From Mesostigma viride (Eukaryota; Streptophyta; Mesostigmatophyceae; Mesostigmatales; Mesostigmataceae): 64,000 nt of DNA. Every line of letters begins with the position of its first letter. Position 1 is the stretch's first letter. The translations under genes and the position numbers were made by a program. The notes under the pieces were generated by a model. The model saw only the letters and a list, made by a program, of their open reading frames with translations, ran no database searches and was not told where the DNA came from. The stretch spans positions 5,521,728 through 5,585,727 of the forward strand of contig RPFO01000050.1 in NCBI GenBank assembly GCA_009746045.1. Reading direction: 5' to 3'. Shown here in pieces: positions 952 to 50,866 of this stretch.

Positions 952-3900
952 TTAAGCCTTCTTGGGCTTCTTTGCGGGCCGGTATGTACCGACCACCTGC
1001 GAAACCAGCATCCCACATTCAACAAGATCCGCCTGTGAGCGTGCCTAAAATATGACACCGCAATCATGACACCCTGAGATCACCTCCGTCCCCACCACCA
1101 AGGACATTGATTCCACAAAAAAAGTATTGATTATACAGCCTCTTGTCACGATATGCTCATGCAGGTCTTATTGCACCCACAGAATTTGCCGGATCATTTT
1201 ATCGTATCGGATTGCTGCTGTGGCATGCCTATGGCATGAAGGAAAAGGGGGGTCTCAGCCCCTTTCCCTGCTGTGCATATATAGGGATTAAAAGCACTCA
1301 TGTGCTCCGTGACTCCCCAACGGGTGCACGTGTATTAATTAATTAATTAATACAGCCTCTGGGACAAAGGAGAAACAAGTTGCCTCTGAGGCACTTCCCC
1401 CTGCCCTCCAGATGGAAGAGTGCAAAATCGGCAACTGTTATAATCTTCTTGTAGTCTTGGATAGCAACCCGTGTCCCAAGGACCAACAAAAGCCACGGCG
1501 CCCCCGTGGTTACGACAGGCCTCACGCAGTGCCAACCCAAAAAATATTGGGAAAGAATATATTCACCACCTAGCGGTAAGCACACCACTTACAATCCTGA
1601 GAGAACAGCAGCAATAGCACAACCACCAGATGCAGCAGGCACCACTGCCACTGGTGCTCCCACTGCCTCCGCCTTCTCTCACGGACACGACCCATTCACA
1701 TCTGTTGGTTCCACTCTCTGTAGACAACACCCCCATTTCAAACGCCAAGGCAGGCCATCAATCACAGCAGTGTTTGTAAAACCCCAGCACAGGCAGGCTC
1801 GCACGCACCCACCACGGTGTGCTGTAGCAGTCCTAGCAAAAAATAGAAAAGGGTAGAACAGACACGTCCTGCATGAACCCACCATGGCGTGGTGTTGTAG
1901 TCCCGACAAAAATAGGCAAGAACAGAACAGGCACGTCCAGCATGCACCCACCACGGCGTGGTCCCTCTCGTAGGGTTCCAACGTGAGCTGCTCCGCCGGC
2001 TTGAAGTTCTCCTCCTGCAGCTTCTTGACCTCCTTGGCAAACACGGCCTCCGCAGGGACCGTGCTGTCAATGCAGTTGGCCTGTGGTATGTTCGCAGCAG
2101 CACCCACCCATCATAGGCCACCCAATCAGGAAAACCACGAGGATGGATGGTCAGGCAGTCTGTCGTGGATGCAGTGGGCCAGTGGTGTCCAAGGAATAGC
2201 TGTTGAGACACAGATGCATCATCCATAGTCCCATGACACGCATATGAGTAGGTCAGGCAAGGTGCTGTCGATGCTGTGGGCCTGCCGGCACAGCGTGAAT
2301 TGGTGCACGGTACTTAGCATAGCATGGTACTCAATATCATCGGATAGAGCCCAGCATCACCTCTTATAAGTCTAGCAAATCACAGAGGCAGTGTCTTGAT
2401 GGAGATGATCAGTACGGCCACCACAGCCATGCTACATGCTAGGGTATGTTAATTAATAGACACGTGATAGGGTATGTTATACTCCAGAAACAGGGCCTTG
2501 ATGGAGATGACCAACTTGCCTACCACATGCTTGGTACATGAATGCACATATATTGTAACGTACAAATAGGGTATATTATAAATACATTAGTAGGTAAATC
2601 CTACCTTGATGGAGATGACAAACTTGCCGCCGTTCTTCAGGAAATTTACGGCGTTGAGCGCGACAATACGAGCCTGCGGCGGGTGACAGCAGACAACCCA
2701 CAGCAGAATGTGGATGACCACTGTGAGACAGCCAGAACATCGAGCTCCAGATATCCCACCTCTTGCCCCCCCCCCCCCAAAACAAAACCCATGCTCTCTT
2801 AATCTGGCCCCCTCCCCTTCCCCCTATGCGTACGACCATCCATTTCACAAGACCATCCACCTGGTCTGACTGTTCGTTGGCAAGGATGGGTTCGGCAAAT
2901 GCCCACGCCTGTTCCCACATTCACTATCTCTACAAGCCACTTCCTTACCCCCCGCGCCCCCGCCCGCCCCCCCCCTACCCCTCCTCTACACACGAGACGC
3001 CACACACCTGGTAGCGCTCCGCCACATTCGAACAAATGGTATCGACCATGTCAACTCCCGCAAATGTGTTATCCTTCCGCCCCCTTTTCTTCTACCCCAC
3101 CAACCCACCGCTATGCACGAGACGGCCACCCACCTGGTCGGGCTGCGCCACGTCGGCGAAGATGGTGTCGACCATGTCAACGAGCATGCGGTACTTGCCC
3201 GGGTAGCGAGCGTCCTCAATGATGGGAATAACGTTGGTTCGCTTCTTGGCCATGTTCACCAGGTCGCGCCCGCTGCGGTAGGAGAACTCGACTGCGTACA
3301 CAATGCCGGTCTGGTGACAGTTGCAAGAGTGGGTAGCAAGGGCACAGAAAGGGCGGGTAAATGGTAAGCTGGGTCTTGACATATCAAGGAGACAACCAGT
3401 GCAGGCCAGAAATCATATGACGATAACAAACATGCGCTGGTGCTGCGGTATGAGAACTCGCCCACGTACACGATGCCGGTCTGGTGACCATGGAGAGTAT
3501 GCGTCTTGCACCACATCATGGGTGGGTGGTGGGTGGGTGGGTAAAACAAGTGTGGGTTCGCTGAAGCGGCAAGGAAAGGTGGGTTGAATAAATGGGTGGC
3601 CCAACACGGCTGCTGCGGGGCAACCTACCGGCCCAACAAGCGTGCTGCAGGGCAACCTACCGGCCCAACAAGCGTGCTGCAGGGCAACCTACCGGCCCAA
3701 CAAGCGTGCTGCAGGGCAACCTACCGGCCCAACAAACGTGCTGCAGGGCAGCCTACCGGCCCAACAAGCGTGCTGCGGGGCAACCTACCGGCCCAACAAG
3801 CGTGCTGCGGGGCAACCTACTGGCCCAACAAGCGTGCTGCGGGGCAACCTACCGGCCCAACAAGCGTGCTGTGGGGCAACCTACCATCCCAACAAGCGTG

Positions 3901-4409
3901 CTGCGGGGCAACCTACCGGCCCCACAATATCGGATACGTGGGAAACCGTCGTCCCTGACGCGGCACCCAGGTACAGGACTTTACTGCCAGGCCCCTGCGA
4001 GATGACGAACGCGGCGTGCAAGAGCGGGGGGTGGAGGGTGAAATGGGATGGCGCAGGGCAGGAGAAAGACGGCACCGTGGAATGGGCAGCGGTCAGAGGC
4101 ATGCGCATCGACATCAGCATCGGCGAGGGAAATTGGGCGAAGGGGCGAAGGGGCGAGGGGGGAGAAGGGGAGAAGGGGTGAAGGGGTGAAGGGGTGAAGG
4201 GGTGAAGGGGTGAAGGGGTGAAGGGGTGAAGGGGTGAAGGGGTGAAGGGGTGAAGGGGTGAAGGGGTGAAGGGGTGAAGGGGTGAAGGGGTGAAGGGGTG
4301 AAGGGGTGAAGGGGTGAAGGGGTGAAGGGGTGAAGGGGTGAAGGGGTGAAGGGATGAAGGGATGAAGGGATGAAGGGATGAAGGGATGACGGGATGGATG
4401 GATGGATGG

Positions 4410-4448
<39 letters not shown>

Positions 4449-6671
4449 TGGGTGGATGGATGGATGGATGGATGAATGGACGCATTAATGAATGCGCGAA
4501 CAAGGCACCGCATGCCTTTCCCCGGGGCACAGGCCGGCAGAACACACGGACAGATAATGTAGAGCAGTGGGGGAGGGGGGTCGGGGCCAGAGATAACCGA
4601 AGGGGCTGATGGTGCATGCAATCGTGTGCTCACATGGTGACATCAATTCCATACCCGCCATTCATGTCCATGCGCCCGTCATTCATGTCCATGCCTAAAA
4701 CAGTTGGTAATGTGGTCTCCCAGAACGAGATTAGGAAACTACCACCGACGTTCCAACTTAGGGGGGTCACTGTAGGGCGAGATGAGGGGTGATTTTAGAG
4801 CACAGTACCCTTGCACAAATGATGTGGATGCTGTCCATATCACCCAGGATGCCCATGTGCGACCGTGCATGAGCCAAAATGATCACTATACTGCGCAGAG
4901 AGGTCCCTTAATGCACGACTCAAGATGTGGATGTTGTCGACACCACCCATGAGAGCGGCAGCCAGCTTGGGTGCATTACCATGGTCACTATACATCACAA
5001 GTGGTCACTGAATTGGTCACTATCTGCTCCACTCATGATGTGGAGGTTGTCGACACCACTCACGAGAGCGGCAGCCAGCTCGGGTGTGTTACCATGGTCA
5101 CTATACAGCCCAAGTGGTCACTGAATCGGTCACTATATGGATGTGGATGTTGTCGACACCACCCAGGATGGCCAAGTCCAGCTTGGGTACGTTACGATGG
5201 TCACTATATGCACCACTCACGATGTGGATGTTGTCAACACCACCCAGGATAGCGGCAGCCAGCTTGGAGCGGAAGGGGTTCCACACGCGGTACTCCACCT
5301 TGGTGTTCTCAGGGCCCTGATCGTGCATGTGTGCGTGATGTGTGCGTGATGTGTGCGTGATGTGTGCGTGATGTGTGCGTTGCGTGTGTATGTGTGATGT
5401 GTGTGTGTGTGTGTGTGCGTGCGTGTGTGAGTGATGCATGTGTGTGAGTGTGATGTGTGTGTGATGCGTGTGTGTGAGTGTGATGTGTGTGAGTGAGTGC
5501 AGGGGGAACGCACGAAAGACCATGGTTTGAACAGCAAGGAACGTCAGCCCACCGAGTCAGCCACCGGGTCCCGAACGTGGCAGCAAGTAAGCTAAGTAGA
5601 ATCACCAGGAAAAGTCCCATGGAATGGCAATAAAAGGGAAGGGGGTGCATGGGTGGGTAGGCAAGTAAACAAGGGGTCAACAGCACAGGGATGCCGTAGT
5701 AAGAAGCCGATAAAAAGACACAGTGAGTGGCTTGTGAAGGAGAGGGCGTCAGGGGTGGGGACGCCGCCGCACCCTAACCCGTTGTCCCCTCTTTGGTATT
5801 TGCCTGTTATGTTGCTATGGGAGGTATTAAGAAGGTGATTATAGAGGTAACGAGGGTAAAGGTAATTACGATAGGGGCAATAAGGGTGATGACGGCGTTT
5901 AGAAGAGGAGCATTGGGCCCGGCAACGGTGCGAACAACTTTTGGGGAAATGAAATTTACGACAATTATGTAATGAGACACATTCTCCTTGGCATTTTCCA
6001 GCAGCCGACGAGAATGCTGTTCATGTCATGGGTGCTGCGCCCACAATGCCATCATTCGCCACCATCCCACACCCATTCCCCATGGAGCTCTCTCTAGCGC
6101 AGCCCCCAAGAACGCATACCTCAACGCTAATTCGCTTTTCTCCGTAGACGGCCTCGCCTGGCACCATGTTGCGGGTGACGAGCGCATCCTCCTTCCCTCG
6201 GGCAATGAACACGCCATCATGCCTATGGTTCTCGATGACCGTCTTGGCTCCGCCCTTCATTCCGCCCCGTCCCCCACCCCGGCCACCGCGCCCTCCGCCT
6301 CCCCGACCTCGCCCTCCCCCGCCGCCTCGCATCCCACCACCGCGGCCCCCACCTCTCCCACCTCCTCGCCCACCCCCTCTCCCACCGTCGAACCCACCAC
6401 GCCCACGCCCGCCCCCCCCGAACCCTCCTGCAACATTCCGACAGTTGAGAAACAGGCGGGAAATGGGTCAGAAAAATGCAAGGCGGCGATGCAGCACGGC
6501 GACGGGCCCAGAAGTCCGGAAGCCCCCGTCTAAAAATGCAAATATACTAACTGAAACGACCAAGAAAACCCTAGAGAATATGAAGTAGCGCACAACTGCC
6601 GTCGTATACAAGCAAAATGCGAATTATTCTATGAATTTTTATCCTGCTGCAACACCACCGTGGCGCCGCAT
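952..6671 (-). CDS. FBL: Fibrillarin, nucleolar rRNA 2'-O-methyltransferase
   Basis: Catalytic subunit of box C/D snoRNPs, which methylates rRNA 2'-OH groups in the nucleolus. Exons on the minus strand, all phase-compatible: about 6659-6671, 6120-6427, 5221-5316, 3917-3994, 3134-3310, 2605-2673, 1952-2080 and 952-996 (TAA at 952-954). The predicted protein is about 304 residues, close to the usual 300-330. Exon 2 carries the Gly/Arg-rich (GAR) tail, then [18 protein letters not shown] and [13 protein letters not shown]. Later exons give [18 protein letters not shown], the SAM-binding motif [82 protein letters not shown] and the tail [14 protein letters not shown]. Exon 1 (MRRHG) is the weakest call: it is chosen because its ATG and donor give the right phase. 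The introns hold repeats copied from adjoining exon edges. Confidence 0.93.
1150..1352 (+). mobile_element. Dispersed repeat, solo terminal segment of a TIR element
   Basis: About 200 bp matching 36143-36345 in the same orientation: shared blocks include TGGCATGCC, GGCATGAAGGA, GGGATTAAAAGCAC and GTGCTCCGTGACT.CCCAACGGG, ending in a TTAATTAATTAA run. The copy sits inside the last fibrillarin intron. The second copy forms the right end of a 950-bp element with terminal inverted repeats, so this is probably a deleted relative. No intact coding sequence. Confidence 0.6.
1800..1962 (-). repeat. Three tandem copies of fibrillarin exon 7 end plus donor
   Basis: Read on the minus strand, CACGCCGTG followed by the donor GTGGGTGCATGC at the end of exon 7 recurs as CACGCCATGGTGGGTTCATGC and CACACCGTGGTGGGTGCGTGC, about 70 bp apart. 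Each copy carries exon sequence, a GT donor and the same following intron sequence. Only the first can keep the [14 protein letters not shown] reading frame. Confidence 0.8.
2160..2290 (-). repeat. Two upstream copies of fibrillarin exon 7 start
   Basis: The true acceptor is CCACAG then GCCAACTGCATTGACAGCAC at 2080. Diverged copies of this junction lie upstream in transcription at about 2167-2186 and 2262-2288 (GCCCACTGCATC and GCCCACAGCATCGACAGCAC), about 100 bp apart. They are decoy acceptor segments. Confidence 0.65.
2390..2610 (-). repeat. Tandem copies of fibrillarin exon 6 end
   Basis: The exon end (GGCAAGTTTGTCATCTCCATCAAG then GT, read on the minus strand) is repeated at about 2496-2520 and 2394-2415, 100-110 bp apart, together with following intron sequence containing GGGTATGTTA. 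The downstream copies have lost the GT donor. Confidence 0.7.
2986..3062 (-). repeat. Copy of fibrillarin exon 5 end
   Basis: About 75 bp matching the end of exon 5 and its donor at 3121-3190: the CACGAGACG, CACCTGGT, CTCCGCCAC / CTGCGCCAC, ATGGT.TCGACCATGTCAAC blocks align in order. It lies about 125 bp into the intron. Confidence 0.7.
3370..3505 (-). repeat. Copy of fibrillarin exon 5 start, next to a dispersed motif
   Basis: Positions 3440-3490 repeat the acceptor and first about 45 bp of exon 5 (GGTATGAGAACTCG.CCACGTACACGATGCCGGTCTGGTGAC on the plus strand, against the true junction at 3310). At 3376-3412 the motif ATATCAAGGAGACAACCAGTG begins a short block that recurs at 34737 and 53750. 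Confidence 0.65.
3600..3935 (-). repeat. 32-bp minisatellite built from the exon 4 donor
   Basis: About ten tandem units of 32 bp. Read on the minus strand each contains GGGCCGGTAGGTTGCCC, which is the end of fibrillarin exon 4 (GTGGGGCCG) plus its donor (GTAGGTTGCCCC). The array therefore offers about ten copies of the same splice donor in a row. Units also contain CTGCAG. Confidence 0.88.
4150..4480. repeat. 8-bp satellite (GGGGTGAA)n followed by (GATG)n and (GT)n
   Basis: About 25 contiguous GGGGTGAA units, grading into GGGATGAA, then GATG, GT and GATG runs. Inside fibrillarin intron 3. The long frames across it (SPLHPFTP repeats) are translation artefacts. Confidence 0.95.
4796..5275 (-). 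repeat. Four tandem copies of fibrillarin exon 3 end plus donor
   Basis: Units of about 75-120 bp start at about 4816 (degenerate), 4923, 5037 and 5141, after the true exon at 5221-5316. Each repeats, on the minus strand, GCTGCCGCT.TC..GGGTGGTGT.GACAACATCCACATC and then intron sequence with ATAGTGACCA. Copies retain up to 50 bp of coding sequence. Confidence 0.85.
5325..5510 (-). repeat. GTGCGTGAT / GT-rich repeat before exon 3 acceptor
   Basis: Tandem GTGTGCGTGAT units and (GT)n on the plus strand, ending at the exon 3 acceptor (CGATCAG then GGCCCT). The unit resembles the acceptor-flanking CATGCACGATCAG. Confidence 0.85.
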
Positions 6672-7974
6672 GCCAAACTATAGAGCTTTACGGCGGCTTA
6701 CGCCGCAATTCGGCTGCGACCCTCATTTCACAGCGCCGAACCCCCATACAAATTTAGCTGACATCAAAAGAAACACACACCTCTCCCACCGCCGCGCATG
6801 GGAGGCCTCATGGTCGCTAAATGCCCTTCAAATACGCGAAACCTCCGAGTAAAGACGGGAGGGGAGTCGTGCGCTTCGGCTCTCCGTCTCTGCACGCGAA
6901 GTGGCCACGGACAGCATGGCTGCGGGGGCTTTAGGTGCGCTGGTCGGTGTGCCTGCGATCTGTCTCCGCATGGGCCCGCCTGCGCAGCACATGCCTCCGG
7001 CCCCGGCCCCGTGCAATGGGACAGGTTTCAGTATGCGCAGTCGGCACGCAGCAGCAGTGCCTCGGCGCGGCTCAAAATTATGTGCGCAGTCTGAAAGGTT
7101 TGGCACTTTTCTCGCAAACGATCTTGCGCATTAAAACCGCGTCCATATTTTTACTTCCCGGTTATAAGAAGTTTAACATTACTTACAAAGTTTTGGGTTC
7201 TCAACCTGCGCCGCCCCATGGTTCGGTGACGGGTCGCCCGTCGCCGTGCCTTCGTCCCGCGCGGCGACGAGTGGAGCTGTGCTGCACTGCTGCGCCGACA
7301 TTCGACAACAGCGCCGCGCGGCGCGCAAAGGAGTCGAATGGTGTAAGCTCGCAGAATAATATTACTGCGGCTAGTAGGAAAGCCTGCATGGATGGCAGCA
7401 CAAGATTTTAATATCAATGCAAGCGGCTACAATTTCGTTGCTACAGTGCGGGACGAGCGCTAGCTCAGTGACAAACATGGCCTCTGTCCTGCCTCTGTGC
7501 AGTGTTTCGTGTTTACTGTTTACACAAATATTATTGACCTGCAGGTTTTGCTTGCGTGTGCTAACTGCACGACATCCTCTTACAAATTGCAGCTCTTGAC
7601 GTAGGTATGATTTGGGTAGACGACTAGCGATTCATGCATTCGGCATGGGGAAAGTTGAATGCTTAGAGGAAGATAGCTAGATCTTTGTGCAGCGAATGGC
7701 CGGTTTGCTGAGATGCGATGAATTCCGCAATAATTCACCATCATTTCATGGTACACTGCGGAGCCCCCTTAGCGGCATCGTGGGCATGAGAAGATGCGTT
7801 ATGCACGCCCGTAGGATTTTAGCAAGTGGCCGGTAGACTAGCAAAGGTCAACAGCTTGCAATGGCATTATTGCCAAAGTGGTGCCATTTCAGTAGTGTAA
7901 ATTTAGTTTCGCGTTGACATTGCAAAACAGCGAGGCCGACAGCTTCGCAAAGCGCTTCAACCCCTTGACGCGCG
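6672..7974. promoter_or_regulatory. Intergenic region between two divergent genes
   Basis: Separates the fibrillarin start (minus) from the membrane-anchor exon at 7975 (plus). It must hold both promoters if the starts are right. GC-rich at 6880-7330, with no TATA box that I can defend. No convincing exon. Frames such as 6828-7106 look random. Confidence 0.4.
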
Positions 7975-10900
7975 ATGGACCCGGGGAAACCGCGGCGCGC
8001 CGGAGCGCCTGAGCTGGTCGCGAGGCGAGGATCTAAAAATCGAGTGATGCAAGCACTCATGGTTGCAGTGCTCATTGCCGTCGGCTCACTGCTCCTGCTT
8101 ACAATGAGATCGGCGTCCCAGGGACAGCTGTTCGCGGTGTCCAACAGCCCGAATAGAGGCTCTCATCTACGTACGTGCAGGCTATCAGCTTCTTATGCAC
8201 CGATTGTGGCATGCACACTCTAGTTCTTCGGAAGGCGACCTATCCACGGCACCGCACATGGCCACTAGTCACTGACAAATGCCGCTGCAAATGACGCCGT
8301 CTTTTCATGGTTTTGCGATCAAATGCTTTTCCTTTAATTTTATATTTTGCCCAGTTCCGAGTTTCTGCAGGACTTGGTACATGCCGCTTCCTTTAAAAAA
8401 AGACGGTCCTGATTAATAGATGGGACCTGATAAATAGATGGGACCTGATTAATAGATGGGACCTGATAAGTAGATGGGACCTGATAAGTAGATGGGACCT
8501 GATAAATAGATGGGACCTGATAAGTAGATGGGACCTGATAAGTAGATGCTACCTGATAAGTGATGGCACCTGCACACGGAGACCCGCTTCGTTGATGGTG
8601 GCAACGTACAGCCCTTTCATGTGCCTATACATGTGCGTTAACTTTTTTACTTGGTTATCAAGTTCCTCAGCAGTGACTCGTGCAAAGCGTGTTGCCTGCC
8701 TCGCTACACAGCCCCGGCATCAGGGTCCCATAAGCCCCCTTCCGCTTGTGCGTTCGCGAGCACTGCGGCGCCCAGCGCGGATTCGTCTGCACTGCACATT
8801 CGCCGAGGCTTTGCGAGTGCGACCCCTTGTATTTGTAGGGGTCAGACGCACTGGTTCCATACTCCTCGTACCCCCCCCCCCGGGTGGTGGAGGGCACGCA
8901 ATGCACCTGCATGCCCCTACACCCCTCTTCCCTGCTCAGGCACGTCAATGGCGTCACCTTGACCGGCTTGCTGTTCATGCCTGTTGCACCCTCGGCCCAC
9001 AGTGTCGGGCGTGGAGGACACGCTGCACCTGCCCGACCCTGCACTGGAGCTGCTCAATAGGGGGCAGGTGAGGAATCTAGATCCAGATTCCCGCATCAGG
9101 GGACTGCTCAGCGTAGCGCAGCGAGGAATTCAAGTGTAGATCCCAGCATGAGGGCAACTACTCAACATGGGGCAGGTGAGGCGTCTGGTTTGGTTGGCAA
9201 CGTTAGGGCAAGTACTCTACATCGGGCAGGTGAGACGTCTGGTTTGGTTGGCAACGTTAGGGCAACTACTCAACATGGGGCAGGTGAGGCGTCTGGTTTG
9301 GTTGGCAACGTTAGGGCAACTACTCAACATGGGGCAGATGAGGCGTCTGGTTTGGTTGGCAACGTTAGGGCAACTACTCAACATGGGGCAGGTGGAATAT
9401 GGTTTTGGCTGCCAACATCAGGGGAACTCCTGAAGTTGGGGCATGTGAGAAGTATATCACAAAGTTCAAAATTTGGGGCAGGTGGGACATCTATACACAA
9501 AGTTCTCATTTGGAGCAGGTGGGACATCTATCCCGAAGTTTTAAGTTTGGGGCAGGTGGGACATCTATCTTTAAGTTCTAAATTTGGGGCAGGTGGGACA
9601 TCTATCACAAAGTTCTTAATTTGGGGCAGGTGGGACATCTATCCCAAAGTTCTAATTAGGCCTTGGATGCGATAGCCAACAATGCGTGCGGGCTACCTGC
9701 TCCCCATCGGACAAGTGACAGCCACCACAATTTTTCCCGCATCTGCTTAGCATGACAAGTGATGTTTGTGGCTAAGGGCTGGAGCGGGCACCTTTGCGAA
9801 GACATCTAGTGACCACATTCAATTGATTCAATAGTTAAATCACGTTTCATTTTTAGGACATGTTTGTTTAGTAAAATTCGTGCCTCTCGGTATGGGTGGC
9901 CAGTTTTTACTAGTAACACATGTGCCTCTGTGTTATGTGTGGGGGCTGCCATTCAATATTAATACAGGTTGGGGGTGAGGATGACGACGATGATGACGAC
10001 GGAGACGATGATGAGGATAGCTCAGATGGTGATATGGAGGATGGCGCTGGCGACAAAGAGGGCGAGGTGGACGGTCAGGAAGACCCCATGTCCATCCTGC
10101 AACTGGAGGCACATTTGGAGGAGGGTAAGAATTGGGGGGGAGCTTGAGCTATACAGCTGTAGTGGTGTGGTCTTTATGGACAGGTGCTTCTATGGAATGG
10201 CTATCGGGCCAGTGGCATTGTGTCCATTCTTTCCCTGGAGGCACATTTGAAGGACGGCAAGCCGGGGGGGGCCTAGAAGCCATATGGCACTTGCGAGGCG
10301 GGTGGGGGTGAGGGGGGGTCTCCTTGAAGCCATGGCATTTCTTGGGTTCCGGGGGGGGGAGGGGCTTCACGCGATGTTAATGATTTTCTGAATGGCTTAG
10401 CTTGTAGGTGATACCTCACATGAATGCTCTTTGAAATTTGTAATCGCATGGCCATCATGTTGTCTGTAAGCTTGGATGTGCGCTTCATGGCACGGTTCAA
10501 GATTGAATTGTAAATCAAATTTAGACCGGGCGACTCCCCTCAATCGATCCAATCCACATGCACCATTACTCCCTCATGTGCGATTGCTCCCTGAGCTCGC
10601 AGTCATGAGAAACCACCAAGATGTGCTTGTTTATATGCTCATGTGCAACATGATCCTCTCACAACCCCTCCCTGTGTCTGTAGACGTGAGAAACCCCAAG
10701 ATTGAAGTGTTCAAATCCAATGCTCCTGTGCGGCCTGTCCTGCAACCACCCCTACCGGTACGTGCAGACGTGATTGAGTCCCCCCCCGCCCCCGACAGCC
10801 GTGCGTGGGATGACCCGCTCCTTGTGGGGCAGGTGCACCCTTTCTGGGGCCACCACGAAGGGGATCCCAAAGAGCAGTCCGAGTCGAGTGCCGTCCCTGC

Positions 10901-35396: not shown

Positions 35397-36346
35397 ATTA
35401 ATTAATTAATTAAACACGCGCTCACGTTGCATGGGGAGTCACGGAGCACGATAATCCGGTGCTTGTCATCCCTGTATGTTGTGCACACACTGGGAAGAGC
35501 CGGGGCAGAGACACGTGTCTGATCCCCCATGCCCGGAAGCAAGCCACATGCTGCAATCGAAACTACGTACTCACGAGCTAGGAGAGTCTGGCATCTCTGT
35601 GGGTGCACTAATGCTGAAATGTGCGTGGGTGACATGGCGGGGGCATTGTCTGGCATGATGAAACTGTATATAGACTGAAGTGTGCGGGTAGTAAGTAAGA
35701 AAGTACTTGCGTGTCATGCGCAAAGGCATGCCACGGAGTACTATGCTAATCTCATTGAAAAAATAATTACACAAATATCGTCTGCATCATTCCCCCGACC
35801 ATGAAGCACTAGATGGGGATGTAATCCTCATTCGAGCTGTCCTCTACTGTTTACAATGGCCGGCAGACGAGGCGGTAGTGTAGCAGCTATCCTCAGGGCC
35901 AATAACCTCGATCCACCTGCGGACTTCTACCCTGGCTAGCAACGGGCCGCAGGGCCCGTGGGGAGAAAACAGGAGCATACCCCTCAGGAAGGTGCTTATC
36001 GCAGATGGCAGCCCATTTCTCCTTGTCAATCATGCGGGCGCGGAGTACGGATAGTCCCAGAAGCCCTGTGCGGGTAGACATGCTGGTGCATAGCCGCAGC
36101 CGGTAGTATGCTGAGCCACACACGGCGCTACTTGTTACTGATGATATGCTCACGTGGGTCTTATTGCACCCACAGCACTTGCCGGATCGTCTATGGCGTG
36201 TCCGATTTTCGCTGTGGCATGCCTCTGGCATGAAGGAGAAAAGGGGTTCCCTGCCCTTTCTTCCTGTTGTGCACATGCAGGGATTAAAAGCACCTCGACG
36301 GTGCTCCGTGACTTCCCAACGGGAGCACGAGTTTAATTAATTTATT
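35397..36346 (-). mobile_element. 950-bp element with terminal inverted repeats
   Basis: Left end TTAATTAATTAAACACGCGC...GGGGAGTCACGGAGCAC (35397-35450) is the inverse of the right end GTGCTCCGTGACTTCCCAAC...TTTAATTAATT (36300-36346). Inside, 35689-36083 matches 53997-54390, and its minus strand encodes the conserved segment GLLGLSVLRARMIDKEKWAA then ICDKHLPEG.APVFSPRA, also found at 54171-54407. I do not recognise the protein. The right 200 bp also occurs alone at 1150-1352. Likely a DNA transposon or an internally deleted derivative. Confidence 0.7.
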
Positions 36347-36589: not shown

Positions 36590-36830
36590 CTTCTCGGGAT
36601 ATTGCTTGTGGCGGATGAAGGTGGCCGGGCCACAGCTCGTGGCGCTGCTGCTGCGCGGGAGTCAGGTCGTCATCCAGCGACCATGGCCGGTGGAGTGCAG
36701 AGTACGTCTTGCGCTGCCGAAGGAAGCGCACCTTGTCTTATCCTCTGGGGAGTCTAAGGTGAGCAGCACTGGTGGGGGAACGTGCTTGTCCCGCAAGCGG
36801 GGCAGACAGTACCCTCGCAGTGCCGAGTAT
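36590..36830 (-). pseudogene. Degraded retrotransposon ORF1-like fragment
   Basis: On the plus strand GCCGGGCCACAGCTCGTGGC, then GTCAGGTCGTCATCCAGCG, GAAGCGCACCTTGTCTTATC and GGTGAGCAGCAC line up in order with 57711-57905, which encodes (minus) the DKLAFLKCRKKLSRTRFTLD domain. Frames are broken. An old copy of the same family. Confidence 0.5.
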
Positions 36831-37004
36831 TGCATGCACTACCGTATATTGCACTTGGCCATGCATCAATAGCGCTCGCTGCAGAGATGTCATGCCCTAG
36901 CTATTGCCCGACAATCATCTTCCGCTGACCCTGGCATTTCTGCACCTTATAGCTGCTGGAATACATGGAGCCGTGCATGTGCACCCGTAGTGCACCCAGC
37001 GTAG

Positions 37005-37106
37005 GTGGCTGTTTACATTCCCCCACCAGTAGGATGTATTAAAAACCATAGCCCCCCTTCTCAGGGCCATGTGTTACGTATTATACTCCCAACAGCATAT
37101 CATAAC
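37005..37106 (-). mobile_element. Dispersed repeat copy (MITE-like), minus orientation
   Basis: Reverse complement matches 28862-28965: GTTGGGAGTATA, CACATGGCCCTGAGAAGGGG, TAATACATCCTA and GGGGGAATGTAAACAGCC. Identity is moderate, so this is an old family. Confidence 0.65.
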
Positions 37107-38764: not shown

Positions 38765-41700
38765 ATGAGGTCGACACAGTCGCTCACCGATGCGGCCCCT
38801 GGTGTTTCGTTAAGGAGTAGTTGGCAAGGCAAAGATGTACGGTGGCGGAAAAGTGGGCAGTCGCCATGCACAAGGGCACTGCCTCCCCGTTCTACCTGTG
38901 TTTCTCATTTGCGTGCTGCCGGAATCAACGGGGACCGTCTATCCATTAGGAGCTCATCGGGGGGGTTGTCTGTACATCACGGCATTTTGACAAGCAAAAG
39001 CAGAGGCAGTGCCGCGCGCTTCTCTGCCATCCGGGGATGCGGCGGGCGAGAAAGAGGTTGCCACCTGCGGGCATCCGTCGAGGTCGCCGGGGCAGGTGCA
39101 CCGGAAAATGATGTAGTTTTAAACACCCCTGAACCGAGTGGCAATGCCACCGAAATTGCAGTAGTGGGAGCCGAGAAGCTGTATGAGAACGACGATGAGG
39201 TAGACGAGGCGGTCGAGGGCCTTCCCTCCCTATATTGGCCAGGGAGTCATGTGGGCGGCAAACAAGGAGCGGCAGAGGAGGACGAGGAAGGAGTTGAATG
39301 GGGCCGGGGTGGTCCTCGCGTATTGAGTATTCTTGAAGTGGAGCCCGATGCAAAACATGTCGTGGAATTAGTTCGCGAGGGCGTGGAATCGGGGCTAGTG
39401 AACACCGTCATGCTGCGCGACGCAGGGCTACGGACAGCGGTGATGCTCAAGACGGCGCAGACTCTCCGCACTCTCTGCCAGTCCCTGGGCACCCGCTTTA
39501 TCGTAGACTCGCGGCTGGATGTCGCGGCGCTATCGGGAGCCGACGGCTTGCAGCTTTCCTCCAGCCTATCGAGGTAAGACATGCGCTCTATTATTATTTT
39601 TTCTTTTTCTAACAGAAATAATGTGAGCATTTCATTCATTTAAATAGCCGTGATACGTTAGTGTACTTCCCCCTTGCTTCATGTCCCCCACTCCCTCCTT
39701 CCCCCTCACCCCTCACCCCTCACCCCTCACCCCTCACCCCTCACCCCTCACCCCTCACCCCTCACCCCTCACCCCTCACCCCTCACCCCTCACCCCTCAC
39801 CCCTCACCCCTCACCCCTCACCCCTCACCCCTCACCCCTCACCCCTCACCCCTCACCCCTCACCCCTCACCCCTCACCCCTCACCCCTCACCCCTCACCC
39901 CTCACCCCTCACCCCTCACCCCTCACCCCTCACCCCTCACCCCTCACCCTTCACCCTTCACCCCCTCTCCCCCCCCCTTCCTTACCAACAAACCTTCCTT
40001 GCCCAGCACGCCCATGACAGCCAGCAAGGCGAGGGAGTTCATGCGCTCCATGAACCTGGCGTCCGCCCCCGGGGGCCCCTCCCCCAGCACCACCCCCCAC
40101 CCCATGATCGGCATCTCGGTCACATCCCTGGAGGGCGCCTTGCTAGCACAGCGCCAGAGCCCCGACTACATCGTGCTCTCGGCACCGCTCGCCGCCGAGG
40201 GAAGCGCCCTGTACCAGGACCCTGTACGCTTCTTTAAGGCCGTCCGCCGCAACGTGCTCTGCCAGCTAATCGCCTCGTCATCGCTGTGCGAGCTGATCGG
40301 CGGGCCCCAGAAGTGAGTACCTGAGTTTGCCGATATCTGGGTCGTTAGCTGGCCCTCACAGTACATCTTCATCCACCTTCATATATTTTTAAATCATGGG
40401 CGGACCACAAAAGGGAGTAGATGGCTTCTGTCTGTGTGTAGTTAGCTGGTTCTCAGTATTACAACCATTATCGTTGTTTGCATTTAACACTGTCCACCTC
40501 CACATTTGAACTGGGGCCTTGACGTGGGTACTCGTAAACCCCGAGTTTGGGGGGGGATATTGGTGGGTTGTGAATAGGGGAGCAATGGTGGGCCCCTACT
40601 TGAATGAATGGTAACTGCTTGTATCTATTTGTGTTTTCCGTGCCGCTCAATGACGGCCGCCAGAAGTGAGCATCCGGGGTAGCTTGTTAGAAATACGTGT
40701 TTGGGCCAAGATGCTACATCACTGCGCCTAAGTGCGTTGGGAATACTGGCCATTCATGTATTCATTCCTGGATTGTGACGCTACACGACACAACCTCGCT
40801 CCCCGCGCGGCTTCATCAAACACCTCCTCTCTGCGCGCGAGCCCCCCTCAGGGCTTTGTTGCAGACCCCTTTTCCCTGCTAAACTGTGCCTGAATTCACG
40901 GTGATCGCTCTCCTACTGGCAAGAAAGCACGCATGGTTACACTCGCTTTTCACCGCTAGCCTTCTCCTGCTTGCGCCCCCCCCCCCCTCCCCCCCCCCCA
41001 ACTACTCCAGGGCGCTCTCCCTGGGTGCGGACGGCATCCTCCTCCCGGCCGATGTGCTGGACCGCGAACTGCTGCGTCTGCTGAGCGCGAAAAAGGTGGT
41101 GGTGGAGCAGGTGAGGGGGGCGTATTGTGCCGGTATTCCAGTATTGCACTGGTATTCCAGTATTGCACTGGTATTCCAGTATTGCACTGGTATTCCAGTA
41201 TTGCACTGGTATTCCAGTATTGCACTGGTATTCCAGTATTGCACTGGTATTCCAGTATTGCACTGGTATTCCAGTATTGCACTGGTATTCCAGTATTGCA
41301 CTGGTATTCCAGTATTGCACTGGTATTCCAGTATTGCACTGGTATTCCAGTATTGCACTGGTATTCCAGTATTGCACTGGTATTGCAGTATTGCACTGGT
41401 ATTACAGTAGGTTAGGGCTAGTGTATGTTCACGTGCGTGAGGATGAGGGGAGGCATAGCTGGGGCGGCTACCTAAGTGTACTCCAGAGTCATTTGCTTTG
41501 TCTGTCGTGGTGGCTATTTAGCGAATGTCTTCATTAATAATATTCCCTAATGGCTTCATCACTCAGGGGCATCCTACCCTCCTCATCGACCGCGCCGCCC
41601 CCCCCCCAACCCCCCCCCCCTTCCGCGTCCCAACTCCTTCCCCCACCCCAATACCCACAAAATATATAACTTTCATTACACTAATGAATACTAACAACAC

Positions 41701-44700
41701 ACTATGTAATGACGCAACAAGCAGGCGGTGCCCGTACCTACGGGCGACCGCCTGTGGGGCGCCATCGCCTTGATCGCCGGTGGCACGGTCGGCGCGGGCA
41801 TCATCGCGCTCCCCGTGAAGACAGCGGCCGCGGGCTTCTTCCCCTCTGCAGCCGCGCTGATGGCCACGTGGGCGTACATGACGGTGACCGCGCTGCTGCT
41901 GGTGGAGCTGTCGGTGTGGTTCGGGCCGCACGCGAGCCTGTCAACGATGGCGCGCTTGACGTTGGGCAAGCTCGGCAAGGTGAGCGGGCCTTACAGTGAA
42001 CAACGTCAAGGAGACAACCATCAACTATAAACTACTATAAATGTGGTTTATAGTGAACACCCCGTGAGTCTTGGGGAACCGCCCATTCGGCAAGCTGTGG
42101 GGGGGGACATGGGGGGGTTCTAGAAAGGTGACACATTTGGGGGCAGGTAACGTTTGGCTGCGAACGGCAAATCCAATTGCAATGGTGGCCATTATTGCAG
42201 GGACATCGGTTCTGTGCTGTGTTCCCTGGCCAATGCACAAGATTGGCAAGCCCTGGCTTATGCCCTGATAGGACAAGCGGAGGCTGGGAATAGAAGGCAC
42301 GGCTTATGGCCTGGATAGGTCAAGGGGAGGCGGGGAATAGAAGGCACAGCTTATGGCCTGGACGACAAGGGGAGGTGGGGAATGGAAGGCACGGCTTATG
42401 GCCTGGATAGGCCAAGTGGAGGCGGGGAATGGAAGGCACGACTTATGGCCTGGATGACAAGGTGAGGCGGGGAATAGAAGGCACGGCTTATGGCCTGGAT
42501 AGGCCAAGGGGAGGCGGGGAATGGAAGGCACGGCTTATGGCCTGGATAGGCCAAGGGGAGGCGGGGAATGGAAGGCACGACTTATGGCCTGGATGACAAG
42601 GTGAGGCGGGGAATGGAAGGCACGACTTATGGCCTGGATGACAAGTGGAGGCGGGGAATGGAAGGTACGACTTATGGCCTGGATGACAAGGGGAGGTGGG
42701 GAATGGAAGGCGCGGCTCATGGCGTGGATAGGTCTTATCTGCCAAGATGGAATTTACAATCACAGGGAACTCATGTCGTTTCCTTCTCCCCTCAAACCAC
42801 CTCCACCAATATCTCGACGCTATGCGCCCTTGCACCAACACCTCCCCACCCATTCCTCCACCCACCACAGAAGATCATGCAAGCCGCTGTACACCGCCCA
42901 CATCGGTAGTTTCGAGCAATTCTTTATTTAATAAAACAACCAATGCGGGCGGCGTACGTGTTTATCTTCATTATCGATGGACCTGTCATGCCTGTTCACC
43001 CCTCACACCCCACCCTTTCCTTCCCCACCCCCACCCCCATCAGAACAACATGCAACGGCTCCATGTCTTCATCTACCTCACTCTCCCTCCCCCCCCGACT
43101 CGTCTCTTCCCCTATGTACCCCCTCCCCCCCCCCCACCACCACCACCAGAACATCATGCAACCGCTCTACGTCTTCATCTACCTGGCCACGCTGACCGCG
43201 TATGTGTCAGAGAGCGCCGGGTTCTTGGCCTCGTTCGGCTCCCGCCTGGGCCTCACCATGGCACCCTGGGCGTGGGCGCTCACTTCCACTGTGCTCCACT
43301 CAGGCGTCATCTACGCGGGCAGCGAGCCGGTGGATGTGGCCAACCGCTACTGCCTGAGTAGGTCTATTTATGGCGGTCTGCTTATGGAGGTCTATATATG
43401 GAGCCTGAGTAGCAGCGCTTCTTTTGCCGCCGAATCCGCCAGATTGCCAGCGAGGATCCGCACGGATGCGGCTGTACTTCAAAGTTTCCGGCGCGGATCC
43501 GGCCAGGTGGCTGGCCACTACAAGGGCCGGCGCGACGAATATACTAGTTATAGTAGCTTAGTTAAGTACTAGACTACACAGCTCTAGTAGCAACCGGCTA
43601 TGAGAATCTGTTGCCGGCGGAGCGCCGGCAGTGGAAAAAAGTCTGAAGGAAGCGCTGCTGAGTAGGTGGATGTGGCCAACCGCTACTGCCTGAGTAGGTC
43701 TGTTTATGGGGTCCTGTTTATGGAGGTCTCTGTATGGAGTGACATGCTACTAGCTGCCTGAGTAGGTCTGTATGTGTAGCATGCTGTGCTTCCCCCACCC
43801 ACTGACCTGCCTGTCCACCTGCCCCTGCATATTTGCCTGCTGTCGCACCAGCCAATCTGCCTGCTTGGTTGCCATCTTGTCCTCTCTGGAGGTCCTCCAG
43901 CTGCTCGCAGTTGCTTCTTGTGTGGGCAGGGGTGTTTGCCAATCCTTGTTTTGTTTTGAACCCTGCACCTCGCTGATCCTGGGGTTAAGGCCTTCCTTTC
44001 TAAGACTATGCCCACACTTTTTTTGTGCCGCATTTGTTTTTGCGTTTTCTCCTGCTGCTCTTTTTGGTTCGCAAACTCTTATGGCACACTTGTTCTGACG
44101 CGTTGTTATGGGTCTGCGCAGTCGTCAAAGTGGCTGAGCGTAAGGTTTGCGCCTTCCTCTAAAAGCTGCATGCCCGGATTCCGCTTCGTGCCCACACTCT
44201 TTGCTGCGTTATTCTGGTTTGGTCGGTGCAGTTGGCGCGGTGGTGTCGTACGTCGCATTGGTCTACTTGTGCGGGCAAGCGATTGACCCCTCGGTGCGTA
44301 CATGAGCTTCCTACTTGTTGTTTTGAGACAGGCTGTAGTATACACATTCTACTTGTTGTTTAGAGACAGCCTGAAGTGCCCGTATTCTAGTTGTTATTGA
44401 AAGGCAACATGTAGTGTCCGTATTCTATTTGCTATTTAAAATAAGCCTGCAGTGCCCGTACTTGATTTGTTATATAAAGATAGCATGTAGTGCCAGTATT
44501 CTACTGGTTATTTTGAGAAAACCTGTAAGTGTCCACGTCGCCTGTGTCTTCTTGAGAGCAGTGGATCAACTCCCCGGCGTGCATATAGTCTATAACCGTT
44601 CTGAAATTAATGTGCACACAGTCTTCCAACTGGCGACTGACGATCTTCAACATCTGCTCTAATCTAGCGTAGCGTAGCTGTAGCAGCTGTGCTTCCAACT

Positions 44701-47700: not shown

Positions 47701-50700
47701 CCTGCGTGGCATACAATGGGAGAGATGGAGAAAATAAGTTTTGGAACGTATGATGGTTTCTTCATAAAAGTGGTTCGCCTGGGGCCAGCCTGGCGCCTGA
47801 GGCATACCCTCAGAATCACCTTGTCCGAGCACCTTGTCCAAATACATGGGGAACTTGTAGTTCCCAAACAGAGCTGGCCTTGGCTGGCTACCCTGAGGCG
47901 GTGGAAAGGGGTGCATGCATGGAAGGGGACGGGCTCATGAATAGGTCAGCCGATGCCAGCAGTATGAGCCTGATGTATGCTTGTCTTTCGCTTGCATTGC
48001 ATGGAAGGGGTACTCCGCCTGATTCCCATCCCCCACCGCCCCCACTGCCGCTGACGTCACCACCGCCCCCTCTTCCCCTCCTTTTCCCTTGCCCCCCTCT
48101 GCCCGCCCCTTCCCTTCCTTCCACCGCCGCCATCGCTGCTCCGCTCGGCCCACCATGACCACCACCATCCACGCTCAACCCACCACAACCACCACCAACG
48201 TCGCCGCTGCCTCCCCCTCCCAACCCGTTATTATCGTCACGATCGCTATACCGTCATGGTCACAACGGCAATGTCACGATGGTCACGACGGCAAATATGC
48301 AACAGCCCCGCGATGAAGACGGCGGCACAGATCTTGGGCGCGTTGGGCGACTCCCTGGGCACCCACGGCCTGCTGCTGGTCCAGGTGTTTGCGTTTCTGG
48401 CGATCGTCACCTCCTTCCTCGGCGTGGGCATGGGATGCATGCACTTTGTGGCCGACATCATCCGCGGGCTCAACATCCGCAAGGTCAAGAACCTGCCGGA
48501 CGCGCAGCGGGTATGTCTCTGCCCTATTTCATGTAGAACGCGTGCCTTCTTAACGAATGTTGTTAGGTATAAACGCCCACAAAATCAAGAACCAGAAGGC
48601 GCAGCGGGTTCGTCTCTGCCCATGCTATATGTATATGTATTTGTATAATAGATTGTATAGTAGCATATACACACTACTATTATATATCCCACCTAGGGTT
48701 TTGCAAGCAATCGGGAAATGGGGGTCGGATCAGGAACAATGTTGGATTATTACACCCGCAAGGTTAGTGGCATGCTCGATCCGCACCAACTAGGTGTTCC
48801 ATGCTCCCCTTCATATATACTACCCTATTTATAATCATCCCCCTTGTAACTTTTGATTCTCCTCCACCTGTCCCCTCGCTCCCCCCCCCCCCCTCCACCC
48901 ACCACCTCAGCGCCTGGTGCCGCTGGTGGCCACCTTCCTCCCCCCCCTACTGGTGGGCGTCACCTGCCCCGGAGTGTTCGTCTCCGCCCTCGAGTTCTCC
49001 GGCACCTTCCGCATGGTCATGTTTGGCATCTTGCCGGCCATCATGGTCTGGTCGGGGCGATACGTGCGCGGCAAGAAGCCGTGGCTGCCCGGTGGCCGCC
49101 TGCTGCTCAGCCTGGTCGTGGGTACGTGGCGGTCACTACAGGCATCGCTGTACACTCATAAGGACTTATGGTTGCCTTGGGCTGCCTGATGTTAAGCCTC
49201 GGCTGAGCACGGTCCCTAGCCCCTTGCCCCTTGCCCCTTGCCCCTTGCCCCTTGCCCCTTGCCCCTTGCCCCTTGCCCCTTGCCCCTTGCCCCTTGCCCC
49301 TTGCCCCTTGCCCCTTGCCCCTTGCCCCTTGCCCCTTGCCCCTTGCCCCTTGCCCCTTGCCCCTTGCCCCTTGCCCCTTGCCCCTTGCCCCTTGCCCCTT
49401 GCCCCTTGCCCCTTGCCCCTTGCCCCTTGCCCCTTGCCCCTTGCCCCTTGCCCCTTGCCCCTTGCCCCTTGCCCCTTGCCCCTTGCCCCTTGCCCCTTGC
49501 CCCTTGCCCCTTGCCCCTTGCCCCTTGCCCCTTGCCCCTTGCCCCTTGCCCCTTGCCCCTTGCCCCTTGCCCCTTGCCCCTTGCCCCTTGCCCCTTGCCC
49601 CTTGCCCCTTGCCCCTTGCCCCTTGCCCCTTGCCCCTTGCCCCTTGCCCCTTGCCCCTTGCCCCTTGCCCCTTGCCCCTTGCCCCTTGCCCCTTGCCCCT
49701 TGCCCCTTGCCCCTTGCCCCTTGCCCCTTGCCCCTTGCCCCTTGCCCCTTGCCCCTTGCCCCTTGCCCCTTGCCCCTTGCCCCTTGCCCCTTGCCCCTTG
49801 CCCCTTGCCCCTTGCCCCTTGCCCCTTGCCCCTTGCCCCTTGCCCCTTGCCCCTTGCCCCTTGCCCCTTGCCCCTTGCCCCTTGCCCCTTGCCCCTTGCC
49901 CCTTGCCCCTTGCCCCTTGCCCCTTGCCCCTTGCCCCTTGCCCCTTGCCCCTTGCCCCTTGCCCCTTGCCCCTTGCCCCTTGCCCCTTGCCCCTTGCCCC
50001 TTGCCCCTTGCCCCTGGCCCCTGGCCCCTTGCCCCTTGCCCCTTGCCCCTTGCCCCTTGCCCCTTGCCCCTTGCCCCTTGCCCCTTGCCCCTTGCCCCTT
50101 GCCCCTTGCCCCTTGCCCCTTGCCCCTTGCCCCTTGCCCCTTGCCCCTTGCCCCTTGCCCCTTGCCCCTTGCCCCTGGCCCCTGGCCCCTTGCCCCTTGC
50201 CCCTTGCCCCTTGCCCCTTGCCCCTTGCCCCTTGCCCCTTGCCCCTTGCCCCTTGCCCCTTGCCCCTTGCCCCTTGCCCCTTGCCCCTTGCCCCTTGCCC
50301 CTTGCCCCTTGCCCCTTGCCCCTTGCCCCTTGCCCCTTGCCCCTTGCCCCTTGCCCCTTGCCCCTTGCCCCTTGCCCCTTGCCCCTTGCCCCTTGCCCCT
50401 TGCCCCTTGCCCCTTGCCCCTTGCCCCTTGCCCCTGCCCCTTGCCCCTTGCCCCTTGCCCCTTGCCCCTTGCCCCTTGCCCCTTGCCCCTTGCCCCTTGC
50501 CCCTTGCCCCTTGCCCCTTGCCCCTTGCCCCTTGCCCCTTGCCCCTTGCCCCTTGCCCCTTGCCCCTTGCCCCTTGCCCCTTGCCCCTTGCCCCTTCCCC
50601 TTGCCCCTTGCCCCTTGCCCCTTGCCCCTTGCCCCTTGCCCCTTGCCCCTTGCCCCTTGCCCCTTGCCCCTTGCCCCTTGCCCCTTCCCCTTGCCCCTTG

Positions 50701-50866
50701 CCCCTTGCCCCTTGCCCCTTACCCCTTGCCCCTGGCCCCTGTGCCCCCTGCCCCTTGCTACCTTTGCATCATGTGTGCGCCACGTGCAGCGCTGGCGGTG
50801 TGCGTCATCTCAGTCGAGTGGTCCAAGAAGCTGGGGGGAATCATCATCGCGCAGGCGGCAGCATAA
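38765..50866 (+). CDS. TenI-like domain fused to tryptophan/tyrosine permease
   Basis: Eleven exons with fully consistent phases: 38765-39573, 40007-40312, 41011-41110, 41725-41979, 43150-43357, 44232-44293, 46014-46133, 47304-47389, 48306-48510, 48911-49121, 50790-50866 (TAA). Product 812 residues. Residues 1 to about 120 are Ser/Arg-rich, acid-poor and plastid transit-like. About 185-403 form a thiamine-phosphate-synthase/TenI barrel: [70 protein letters not shown]. The T-K segment that normally follows the GP motif is absent, so catalysis is doubtful. From about 410 the Trp/Tyr permease family (PF03222-type) follows: [104 protein letters not shown]. It presumably imports aromatic amino acids across the plastid envelope. 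The fusion rests on phase agreement at 41110/41725 and lack of an ATG or stop between the parts. Confidence 0.85.
39706..39962 (+). repeat. Heptamer satellite (CACCCCT)n
   Basis: About 35 units of CACCCCT in the first intron of the TenI-permease gene. The transcribed strand is C/T-rich with no G for about 250 bases. The SPLTPHP frames are artefacts. Confidence 0.95.
40295..40680 (+). repeat. Copies of exon 2 end plus donor
   Basis: Exon 2 ends CGGGCCCCAGAA with donor GTGAGT at 40313. A copy CGGCCGCCAGAA then GTGAGC is at about 40655-40674, and a weaker one (GGGCGGACCACAAAAGGGAG) at about 40397. Confidence 0.65.
41128..41408 (+). repeat. 19-bp minisatellite, about 15 units
   Basis: Unit TATTCCAGTATTGCACTGG, almost invariant, beginning 18 bp after the exon 3 donor. 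Each unit contains a pyrimidine-poor CCAG that could act as an acceptor. Confidence 0.95.
42240..42735 (+). repeat. About 47-bp minisatellite, about ten units
   Basis: Unit GGAATGGAAGGCACGGCTTA then TGGCCTGGATAGGCCAAGGGGAGGCGG, with a shorter variant (GATGACAAG). The two variants alternate in blocks, suggesting a higher-order repeat. Confidence 0.93.
42860..43200 (+). repeat. Upstream copies of exon 5 start
   Basis: Exon 5 starts AACATCATGCAACCGCTCTA then CGTCTTCATCTACCTGGCC after CACCAG. Copies: about 42866 (CAGAAGATCATGCAAGCCGC then TGTACACC), about 42940 (ATGCGGGCGGCGTACGTGTT then TATCTTCATTATC) and about 43042 (CAGAACAACATGCAACGGCT then CCATGTCTTCATCTACCTCA). The nearest copy is about 80% identical over 50 bp, acceptor included. 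Confidence 0.85.
43325..43775 (+). repeat. Duplicated exon 5 end, split by a 265-bp insertion
   Basis: The exon end GTGGATGTGGCCAACCGCTA then CTGCCTGAGTAGGTCT (43331) recurs at 43667, followed in both cases by TATTTATGG/TGTTTATGG and TATGGAGGTCT. A further short copy CTGCCTGAGTAGGTCTGTAT is at 43754. Between the first two copies lies a GC-rich block (about 43400-43660) with palindromes (GCCGGCGGAGCGCCGGC) that looks inserted; CTGAGTAG occurs at both of its edges. Confidence 0.75.
44300..44535 (+). repeat. Degenerate about 57-bp tandem repeat
   Basis: Four to five units around GTGCCCGTATTCTAGTTGTT then ATTGAAAGGCAGCATGTA, well diverged. Follows the exon 6 donor. Confidence 0.75.
44536..45300. 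other. Intron sequence without recognised exon
   Basis: GGCCAAAGGGGCCAATAGGC and similar GGGGCCAA repeats at 45033-45072; otherwise unique. Between exons 6 and 7 of the TenI-permease gene. Confidence 0.4.
45306..45865 (+). repeat. Compound hexamer satellite (CCCACA / CCCCCA / CCCCAA)n
   Basis: About 560 bp of 6-bp units in blocks: (ACCCAC)n, (CCCCCA)n, (AACCCC)n, (ACCCAC)n, (CCCCCA)n, (ACCCAC)n, (CCCCCA)n. The block order is partly repeated, implying duplication of already mixed arrays. Confidence 0.96.
46232..46592 (+). repeat. 25-bp minisatellite, about 14 units
   Basis: Unit TTGACAGCCTTTCTTCACCT then TTTGG. Variants (CTATTGG, TCGCC) are clustered. The pyrimidine-rich strand repeatedly offers CTTTTGGTTGACAG, an acceptor-like sequence. 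Confidence 0.95.
46660..47330 (+). repeat. Upstream copies of exon 8 start
   Basis: Exon 8 starts GCGATCGCGGTCGTCGTTGG after CGCAG. At 46669-46712 CCGCAGGCAATCGTGGTCGT then CCTACGGCGGCG is a copy with acceptor. Derived GCGTGGCAATCCTTAGGGCG units follow at 46706-46790 and again at 47027. Confidence 0.65.
47390..48305. other. Intron 8, with a two-unit repeat
   Basis: 47488-47545 and 47562-47620 share GTGCTGCCCCA...GCTATGAGATCCTCTAACCC then TTCTA. The rest is C-rich (48020-48200) with no exon recognised. Confidence 0.6.
48480..48620 (+). repeat. Copy of exon 9 end
   Basis: Exon 9 ends AAGGTCAAGAACCTGCCGGA then CGCGCAGCGG with donor GTATGTCTCTGCCC. 48575-48622 repeats it (AAAATCAAGAACCAGAAGGC then GCAGCGGGTTCGTCTCTGCCC), with the donor changed to GTTCGT. 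Confidence 0.8.
49213..50757 (+). repeat. 1.5-kb heptamer satellite (TTGCCCC)n
   Basis: About 215 nearly invariant 7-bp units in the last intron of the TenI-permease gene. Rare variants: CTGGCCC doublets near 50014 and again near 50175 (161 bp, 23 units apart), a 6-bp unit near 50431, and TTCCCC units near 50597 and 50687. Paired variants indicate block duplication within the array. The 698-residue frame across it is an artefact. Confidence 0.98.

Follow-up and report, generated by a model that had tools for sequence, protein, structure and literature searches.

In a stretch of 64,000 nucleotides (nt) from the genome of Mesostigma viride (contig RPFO01000050.1, positions 5,521,728 to 5,585,727; the window below means this whole stretch), the introns of three neighbouring genes contain copies of the exon edges that adjoin them, together with the corresponding splice sites. 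In the explanation that we regard as probably correct, genomic DNA in these Mesostigma introns is often duplicated locally in tandem, the junction copies being units that spanned a splice junction by chance. Duplication is equally common at junctions and elsewhere in the intron, and nothing points to a process that targets splice sites. The three genes are as follows.

952 to 6811, minus strand: fibrillarin gene, 8 exons and 7 introns in an in-frame GT-AG model (Pfam PF01269, E = 4.5e-107)
7975 to 34552, plus strand: GT29 sialyltransferase-like gene (Pfam PF00777); the annotation-consistent model has 21 exons and a translation equal to protein P0010
38837 to 50866, plus strand: TenI and Trp/Tyr permease fusion gene, 11 exons modelled, start provisional (Pfam TenI and Trp/Tyr permease)

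Together, the three models contain 37 introns, all GT-AG and in frame, and thus 74 junctions. The corrected GT29 model is identical over all 954 residues to the annotated Mesostigma protein P0010 (jgi/Mesvir1/21851), and the permease model is identical to the annotated P0002 (EukProt, jgi/Mesvir1/21852) from VGAEKLYEN to the stop; Mesvir1 in these record names is read here as Mesostigma viride. The initial GT29 model differed from P0010 at three places, namely the last exon (placed at 34228), exon 4 (which began earlier) and an additional exon at 16113-16166. The annotated last exon is supported over the alternative at 34228 by the relative P0011, which ends with HSWEFDVLVIRLL plus a short tail. 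The segment at 16113-16166, 54 nt long, in frame, flanked by AG and GT and situated between two GT29 exons, is missing from the annotated protein and may be a cassette exon or a chance occurrence. The main counts refer to the annotation-consistent model, and the test of intron creation described below was made on the initial model with 38 introns. The outcome barely depends on this choice, with 23/76 junctions and 45 copies in the initial model versus 22/74 and 44 in the corrected one.

In a strict search, alignments of the 40-nt exon edges were made against the intron adjoining each edge and against the 36 other introns. The own intron provided the best match at 22/74 junctions (14 donors and 8 acceptors), where 2 would be expected, and at 0/74 junctions when the same 40-nt test was made for matches in inverted orientation. 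A wider search, using up to 60 nt of exon and 6 nt of intron with a score of at least 85 and a chance level taken from the other introns, yielded 44 exon-edge copies at 25/74 junctions, distributed over 22/37 introns, as against approximately 1.3 copies expected by chance. By side, 18/37 donors and 7/37 acceptors carried copies (chance levels, 0.5 donor and 0.8 acceptor copies), and 49/74 junctions had none. Among these 25, the donor junction of GT29 intron 5, with two copies, is doubtful because it depends on a low-complexity GGGAG array. A sequence-only reading of this DNA had counted at least twenty such junctions and judged them too regular to be random; both searches bear out the number, and the excess over the chance level bears out the judgement. 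Its positional rule, by which copies of exon ends lie downstream of the donor and copies of exon starts upstream of the acceptor, also holds. The copies are not due to chance, and local tandem duplication is their likely maker.

The copies are in direct orientation and are 65-98% identical to the exon edge (median 80%), and they cluster on the side of the junction that they resemble, with 31/34 donor copies and 10/10 acceptor copies in the near half of the intron. Successive copies, or a copy and the true junction, are spaced by a median of 108 nt (range 54-336 nt), and the copies reach into the exon by a median of 40.5 nt, a value bounded by the 60 nt of the query. Acceptor copies all lie at least 97 nt from the true site, and donor copies are found from 60 nt onwards. 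The splice dinucleotide is intact in 20/32 donor copies (GT) and 8/9 acceptor copies (AG), against a neutral expectation of 63% derived from the median identity. The individual copies and arrays are listed below.

4815 to 5186, minus strand: fibrillarin intron 3 with four copies of the end of exon 3 and its donor, 81-92% identical, GT kept in none; Tandem Repeats Finder (TRF) unit of 113 base pairs (bp)
3598 to 3927, minus strand: 32-bp array of 10.3 units from the fibrillarin exon-4 donor, the unit comprising, by eye, approximately the last 11 exon bases plus GTAGGT
3442 to 3486, minus strand: copy of the fibrillarin exon-5 start in intron 4, 89% identical, AG intact
2254 to 2520, minus strand: fibrillarin intron 6 copies, of the exon-6 end at 2496-2520 (96%) and of the exon-7 start at 2254-2284 (81%)
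9121 to 9449, plus strand: 54-bp array with the GT29 exon-2 end and donor in intron 2
18994 to 19191, plus strand: two copies of the GT29 exon end at 18854, 76-79% identical, GT intact
26201 to 26233, plus strand: copy of the GT29 exon start at 26304, 94% identical, AG intact
26465 to 26587, plus strand: two copies of the GT29 exon end at 26408, 75-90% identical, GT intact
30194 to 30672, plus strand: 90-bp GT29 array of 5.3 units, 97% identical, beginning inside the exon at 30164-30229, with four additional intact donors downstream of the true one
30969 to 31376, plus strand: four copies of the GT29 exon end at 30914, 71-95% identical, GT in all
31773 to 32158, plus strand: three copies of the GT29 exon start at 32224, 68-71% identical, AG in all
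32930 to 32964, plus strand: copy of the GT29 exon end at 32829, 91% identical, GT intact
33604 to 33648, plus strand: copy of the GT29 exon end at 33584, 89% identical, GT lost
42868 to 43084, plus strand: two copies of the permease exon start at 43150, 82-88% identical, AG intact
43652 to 43699, plus strand: copy of the permease exon end at 43357, 90% identical, GT intact
41132 to 41409, plus strand: 19-bp array of 14.6 units, a duplication inside a permease intron that showed no copy of its exon edges

The claim that some junctions carry ten or more copies fits the array at 3598-3927 with its 10.3 units, of which only about 11 nt each derive from the exon; this array was counted as one copy in the wide search. 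By their identities, the 90-bp array at 30194-30672 looks young and the copies before 32224 look old. Because the length of the 90-bp unit is divisible by three and the exon frame stays open through the entire array, use of the inner donors would add 30-residue repeats to the GT29 domain; these are missing from the annotated protein. Other repeats within the introns include a 7-bp array of CCCTTGC (49214-50758, 221 units), which almost fills the last permease intron, and telomere-like AAACCCT repeats at 12055-12132 and 31815-31938 in GT29 introns.

Near-identical arrays such as the 90-bp and 7-bp arrays are difficult to assemble, and for the young arrays the number of units may still be incorrect. 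However, 41/44 copies are less than 95% identical to the exon edge, unlike the products of false joins, and an assembly artefact is an extremely improbable source of the copies.

The form of the copies is genomic. Copies that cover 10 nt or more on each side of the junction were found at 13/74 junctions (8 donors and 5 acceptors), whereas copies of the spliced exon-exon junction were found in 0/37 introns, with up to eight matches considered per query, as for the genomic query. When the 10-nt criterion was applied to the other introns as a chance control, one donor query and no acceptor or spliced query passed, in 1332 comparisons each. The junction-crossing copies being genomic at 13/74 junctions and spliced in none, it was genomic DNA that was copied; the templating by nascent RNA or complementary DNA that the sequence-only reading had considered does not agree with this result. 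Similarity on the intron side exceeded the 95% null level in 25/42 copies of the initial model and, in a stricter test skipping the splice site, in 37% of 41 copies.

The frequency of duplication was then compared along the introns using 30-nt windows at fixed distances from the junctions, in introns of at least 350 nt only; low-complexity windows were excluded from the windowed tests (141/1163 intron and 5/612 intergenic windows in one run). Duplicated windows amounted to 22/73 (30%) at the exon edge, 22-25% in the first 60 nt of the intron and 23-36% deeper in the intron, giving an edge/interior ratio of 1.04 (bootstrap 95% interval, 0.68-1.54). Within the exon, duplication dropped to 7/68 at 30-60 nt, 2/48 at 60-90 nt and 0/30 at 90-120 nt, which is as expected if the units are short and duplications internal to exons are eliminated. 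A crude simulation, in which tandem duplications arose uniformly along introns, with fixed exons, substitutions, deletions and random base composition, gave a spatial profile similar to that observed, including the fall-off into the exon. Its five parameter sets were chosen by hand to approach the observed interior rate, after three sets that gave too many duplications.

A local process at exon borders had been proposed from the sequence. Local tandem duplication is likely, but a preference for the borders is not supported. It is also quite unlikely that the copies were created by a process targeted to junctions, such as slippage at splice-site DNA or repair templated by nascent RNA or complementary DNA. 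The copies at 25/74 junctions and an observed edge/interior ratio above that of 14/15 simulations are in favour of such targeting, but edges show no excess over the intron interior, spliced forms are absent from all 37 introns, and arrays without any exon-edge match occur in introns, for example at 41132-41409.

The process that we favour would operate as follows. Intron units, mostly of tens to approximately 150 bp, would be tandemly duplicated through replication slippage, template switching or break repair, and a unit overlapping a splice junction by chance would copy some 20-60 nt of exon edge along with the splice site. The outermost, original junction would still be used, so that the additional copy would be intronic and harmless and would decay, leaving the protein unchanged. 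Duplications spanning a junction would survive for this reason, and selection would remove those lying wholly within an exon. Arrays may afterwards grow or shrink by unequal exchange, and repeated rounds would generate the graded series of 65-98% identical copies downstream of donors and upstream of acceptors.

Several observations weigh against uniform, neutral duplication of this kind. The simulated edge/interior ratios ranged from 0.49 to 1.10 with a mean of about 0.7, and only 1 of the 15 runs reached the observed 1.04, so a modest real excess of duplication at exon edges is possible. The retention of AG in acceptor copies exceeds the neutral 63%, albeit in a small number. The difference between donors and acceptors with copies (18/37 versus 7/37; Fisher p = 0.013) would require an extra selective or mechanistic step in a uniform process. 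Lastly, duplications are far fewer in intergenic DNA, which background mutation alone would account for only if that DNA were younger.

The last two points correspond to two asymmetries. Duplicated windows made up 34.5% of introns and 7.1% of intergenic DNA, an approximately fivefold difference (36.0 versus 7.9% in an earlier run); the difference of 0.274 was reached by 0/252 circular shifts of the annotation, the largest shifted value being 0.248. The comparison of exon edges with random intron and intergenic points, on which the sequence-only reading had staked its claim, is therefore divided in this window: edges are duplicated no more commonly than intron points, but more commonly than intergenic ones. 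Within introns, the duplicated share was 43% at 30-330 nt after the donor versus 17% at 60-360 nt before the acceptor, and the 5' side was denser than the 3' side in 15 introns versus 6, with 1 tie (p = 0.013; 22 scorable of the 24 introns of at least 700 nt). The donor excess could plausibly arise because the splicing machinery would commit early to the first donor and ignore any additional one downstream, but would encounter an additional upstream acceptor before the true one.

These asymmetries would also be accommodated by a refinement of local tandem duplication, in which duplication is limited to transcribed introns and favours their 5' part through coupling to transcription or splicing (e.g., R-loops or transcription-replication conflict), with the junction copies as a by-product. 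We consider this refinement a tentative and somewhat doubtful possibility, and the coupling to transcription a lead, not a result. Both the intron-intergenic difference and the donor-side density argue for it. On the other side, it rests on three genes, and the intergenic DNA contains transposon-like repeats, such as the dispersed pair at 35690-36068 and 54000-54385 (89% identical), and may be younger; low intergenic duplication may thus reflect young, transposon-rich DNA. In addition, an element inside a GT29 intron, a near-perfect, transposon-like inverted repeat at 19919-20882 (95% over 966 nt), is itself almost without tandem duplications, only 4% of windows being duplicated in the 20-22 kb bin. 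The 311-residue open reading frame (ORF) of this element had no Pfam match at E 0.01.

The creation of introns through tandem duplication of AGGT-containing exon sequence, which the sequence-only reading had also put forward, resembles the present case in involving local tandem duplication with splice sites. The idea is published (cited in PMC3087553), and tandem duplicates with splice sites do exist in the window. It predicts, however, that the start of the downstream exon is found at the intron start and the end of the upstream exon at the intron end, and the Mesostigma copies lie on the opposite sides. This swapped signature was at the chance level, with 1/38 and 1/38 introns within 80 nt (1 expected) and 1 and 2/38 within 150 nt, its strongest match being the 90-bp array, which fills a 538-nt intron. 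Near-side matches, by comparison, numbered 9 donors and 1 acceptor of 38 within 80 nt, and 15 and 9 of 38 within 150 nt. We therefore regard intron creation as a very improbable origin of these copies.

Retention of the copies by selection, as spare or decoy splice sites, was considered in view of the intact GT and AG dinucleotides and of an exon part that appears better preserved than the spacer, including between intronic copies (12/17 adjacent pairs). The retention of GT, however, equals the neutral expectation, and in eight neutral simulations with the same detection the exon part was better kept in 6/9 to 11/11 pairs. The asymmetry between exon part and spacer needs no constraint, because detection via the exon part yields it under neutrality. 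Selection of this kind is highly unlikely, and conservation of the intronic copies by selection or by conversion from the exon was dropped as an explanation of the asymmetry.

With respect to splicing, the annotated GT29 and permease proteins skip the exon-edge copies, with one ambiguous GT29 acceptor, and the fibrillarin gene was judged from the model alone. The ambiguous case is exon 4 of the GT29 gene, which has two in-frame acceptors (AG/ACGTGA) 84 nt apart, at 10684 and 10768, the annotation using 10768 and the initial model 10684. A third, diverged copy of this acceptor lies at 10599-10657, with 44/57 aligned bases equal to those of the first copy. We noticed no other site in the window at which a boundary copy may alter the protein; the difference here would be 28 residues, and the pair at 10684/10768 is a candidate mirage in the sense explained below.

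Introner elements are families of related repetitive sequences present across many introns. They have repetitive intron sequence in common with the present case, but the window has no long family shared between introns, and they were ruled out on that basis. Self-comparison of the window by BLAST at a length of at least 150 nt returned two inverted repeats plus two dispersed pairs, although short families would escape this search. Besides the elements described above, a palindromic repeat of about 300 nt (80%) is located at 23132-23427 within a GT29 intron, and a dispersed pair (81%) links 1150-1348 in a fibrillarin intron to 36143-36346 in intergenic DNA. Outside the three genes, the minus strand contains an intronless ORF for a photosystem I PsaG/PsaK protein (60556-61038; Pfam PF01241) and an ORF with a PHD finger (55150-55428).

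The sequence-only reading knew of no described system like this one; the "mirages" of amphioxus are such a system. In mirages, tandem units of 10-160 bp extend across 5' or 3' exon-intron boundaries, many with the AG or GT kept, and splicing is apparently normal (PMC3087553). The first mirage paper was "Minisatellite instability at the Adh locus" (2002, as referenced in PMC3087553), and PGBD5 and TnC are further mirage genes (PMC3902484). The Mesostigma copies are likewise genomic units, and both 5' and 3' boundaries carry copies that span them. They differ in that Mesostigma is a streptophyte green alga, not a cephalochordate, and in that 22/37 introns of three neighbouring genes are affected. 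The Mesostigma copies are, moreover, mostly old, degraded and part of an intron-wide duplication. The description of mirages includes length polymorphism or somatic instability, also between haplotypes (PMC3087553); the present analysis covers one sequence of the Mesostigma locus.

Among green algae, tandem-repeat density in Chlamydomonas and Volvox is highest in introns and higher near intron-exon junctions (PMC3887541); that survey counted repeats, and the available part of its text does not mention exon sequence in the units. In the Mesostigma genome, repeats occupy 30.1% of the intron space and the mean intron length is 1142 bp (PMC6947507); the same paper reports RNA-seq or full-length cDNA data. 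Junction copies in Mesostigma are described neither in the titles and abstract openings listed by our literature searches nor in the available parts of its two genome papers (PMC6947507 and PMC7027972), in the second of which the word "intron" is absent from the main text. We class the Mesostigma case as mirages in a new, distant lineage at high density, and its novelty lies in this lineage and density.

A more far-reaching proposal is that tandem duplication continues in these introns, coupled to transcription or splicing, confined to genes and strongest behind donors, and that it steadily seeds spare splice sites and exon edges, the occasional use of which (e.g., at 10684/10768) would continually supply new exon sequence and displace intron borders. 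We think this rather unlikely as a whole, although it is conceivable. For gene prediction, the present data serve as a warning that this DNA has many decoy junctions in which an intact GT or AG adjoins exon-like sequence. The available descriptions of mirages concern a handful of genes in amphioxus; our findings add an early-branching streptophyte alga, in which mirages are dense enough to be counted. If the rest of the genome is alike, Mesostigma would offer a test of how far the spliceosome tolerates duplicated splice sites, of the excess of donor over acceptor copies, and of whether duplications at exon borders may give rise to exons or introns.

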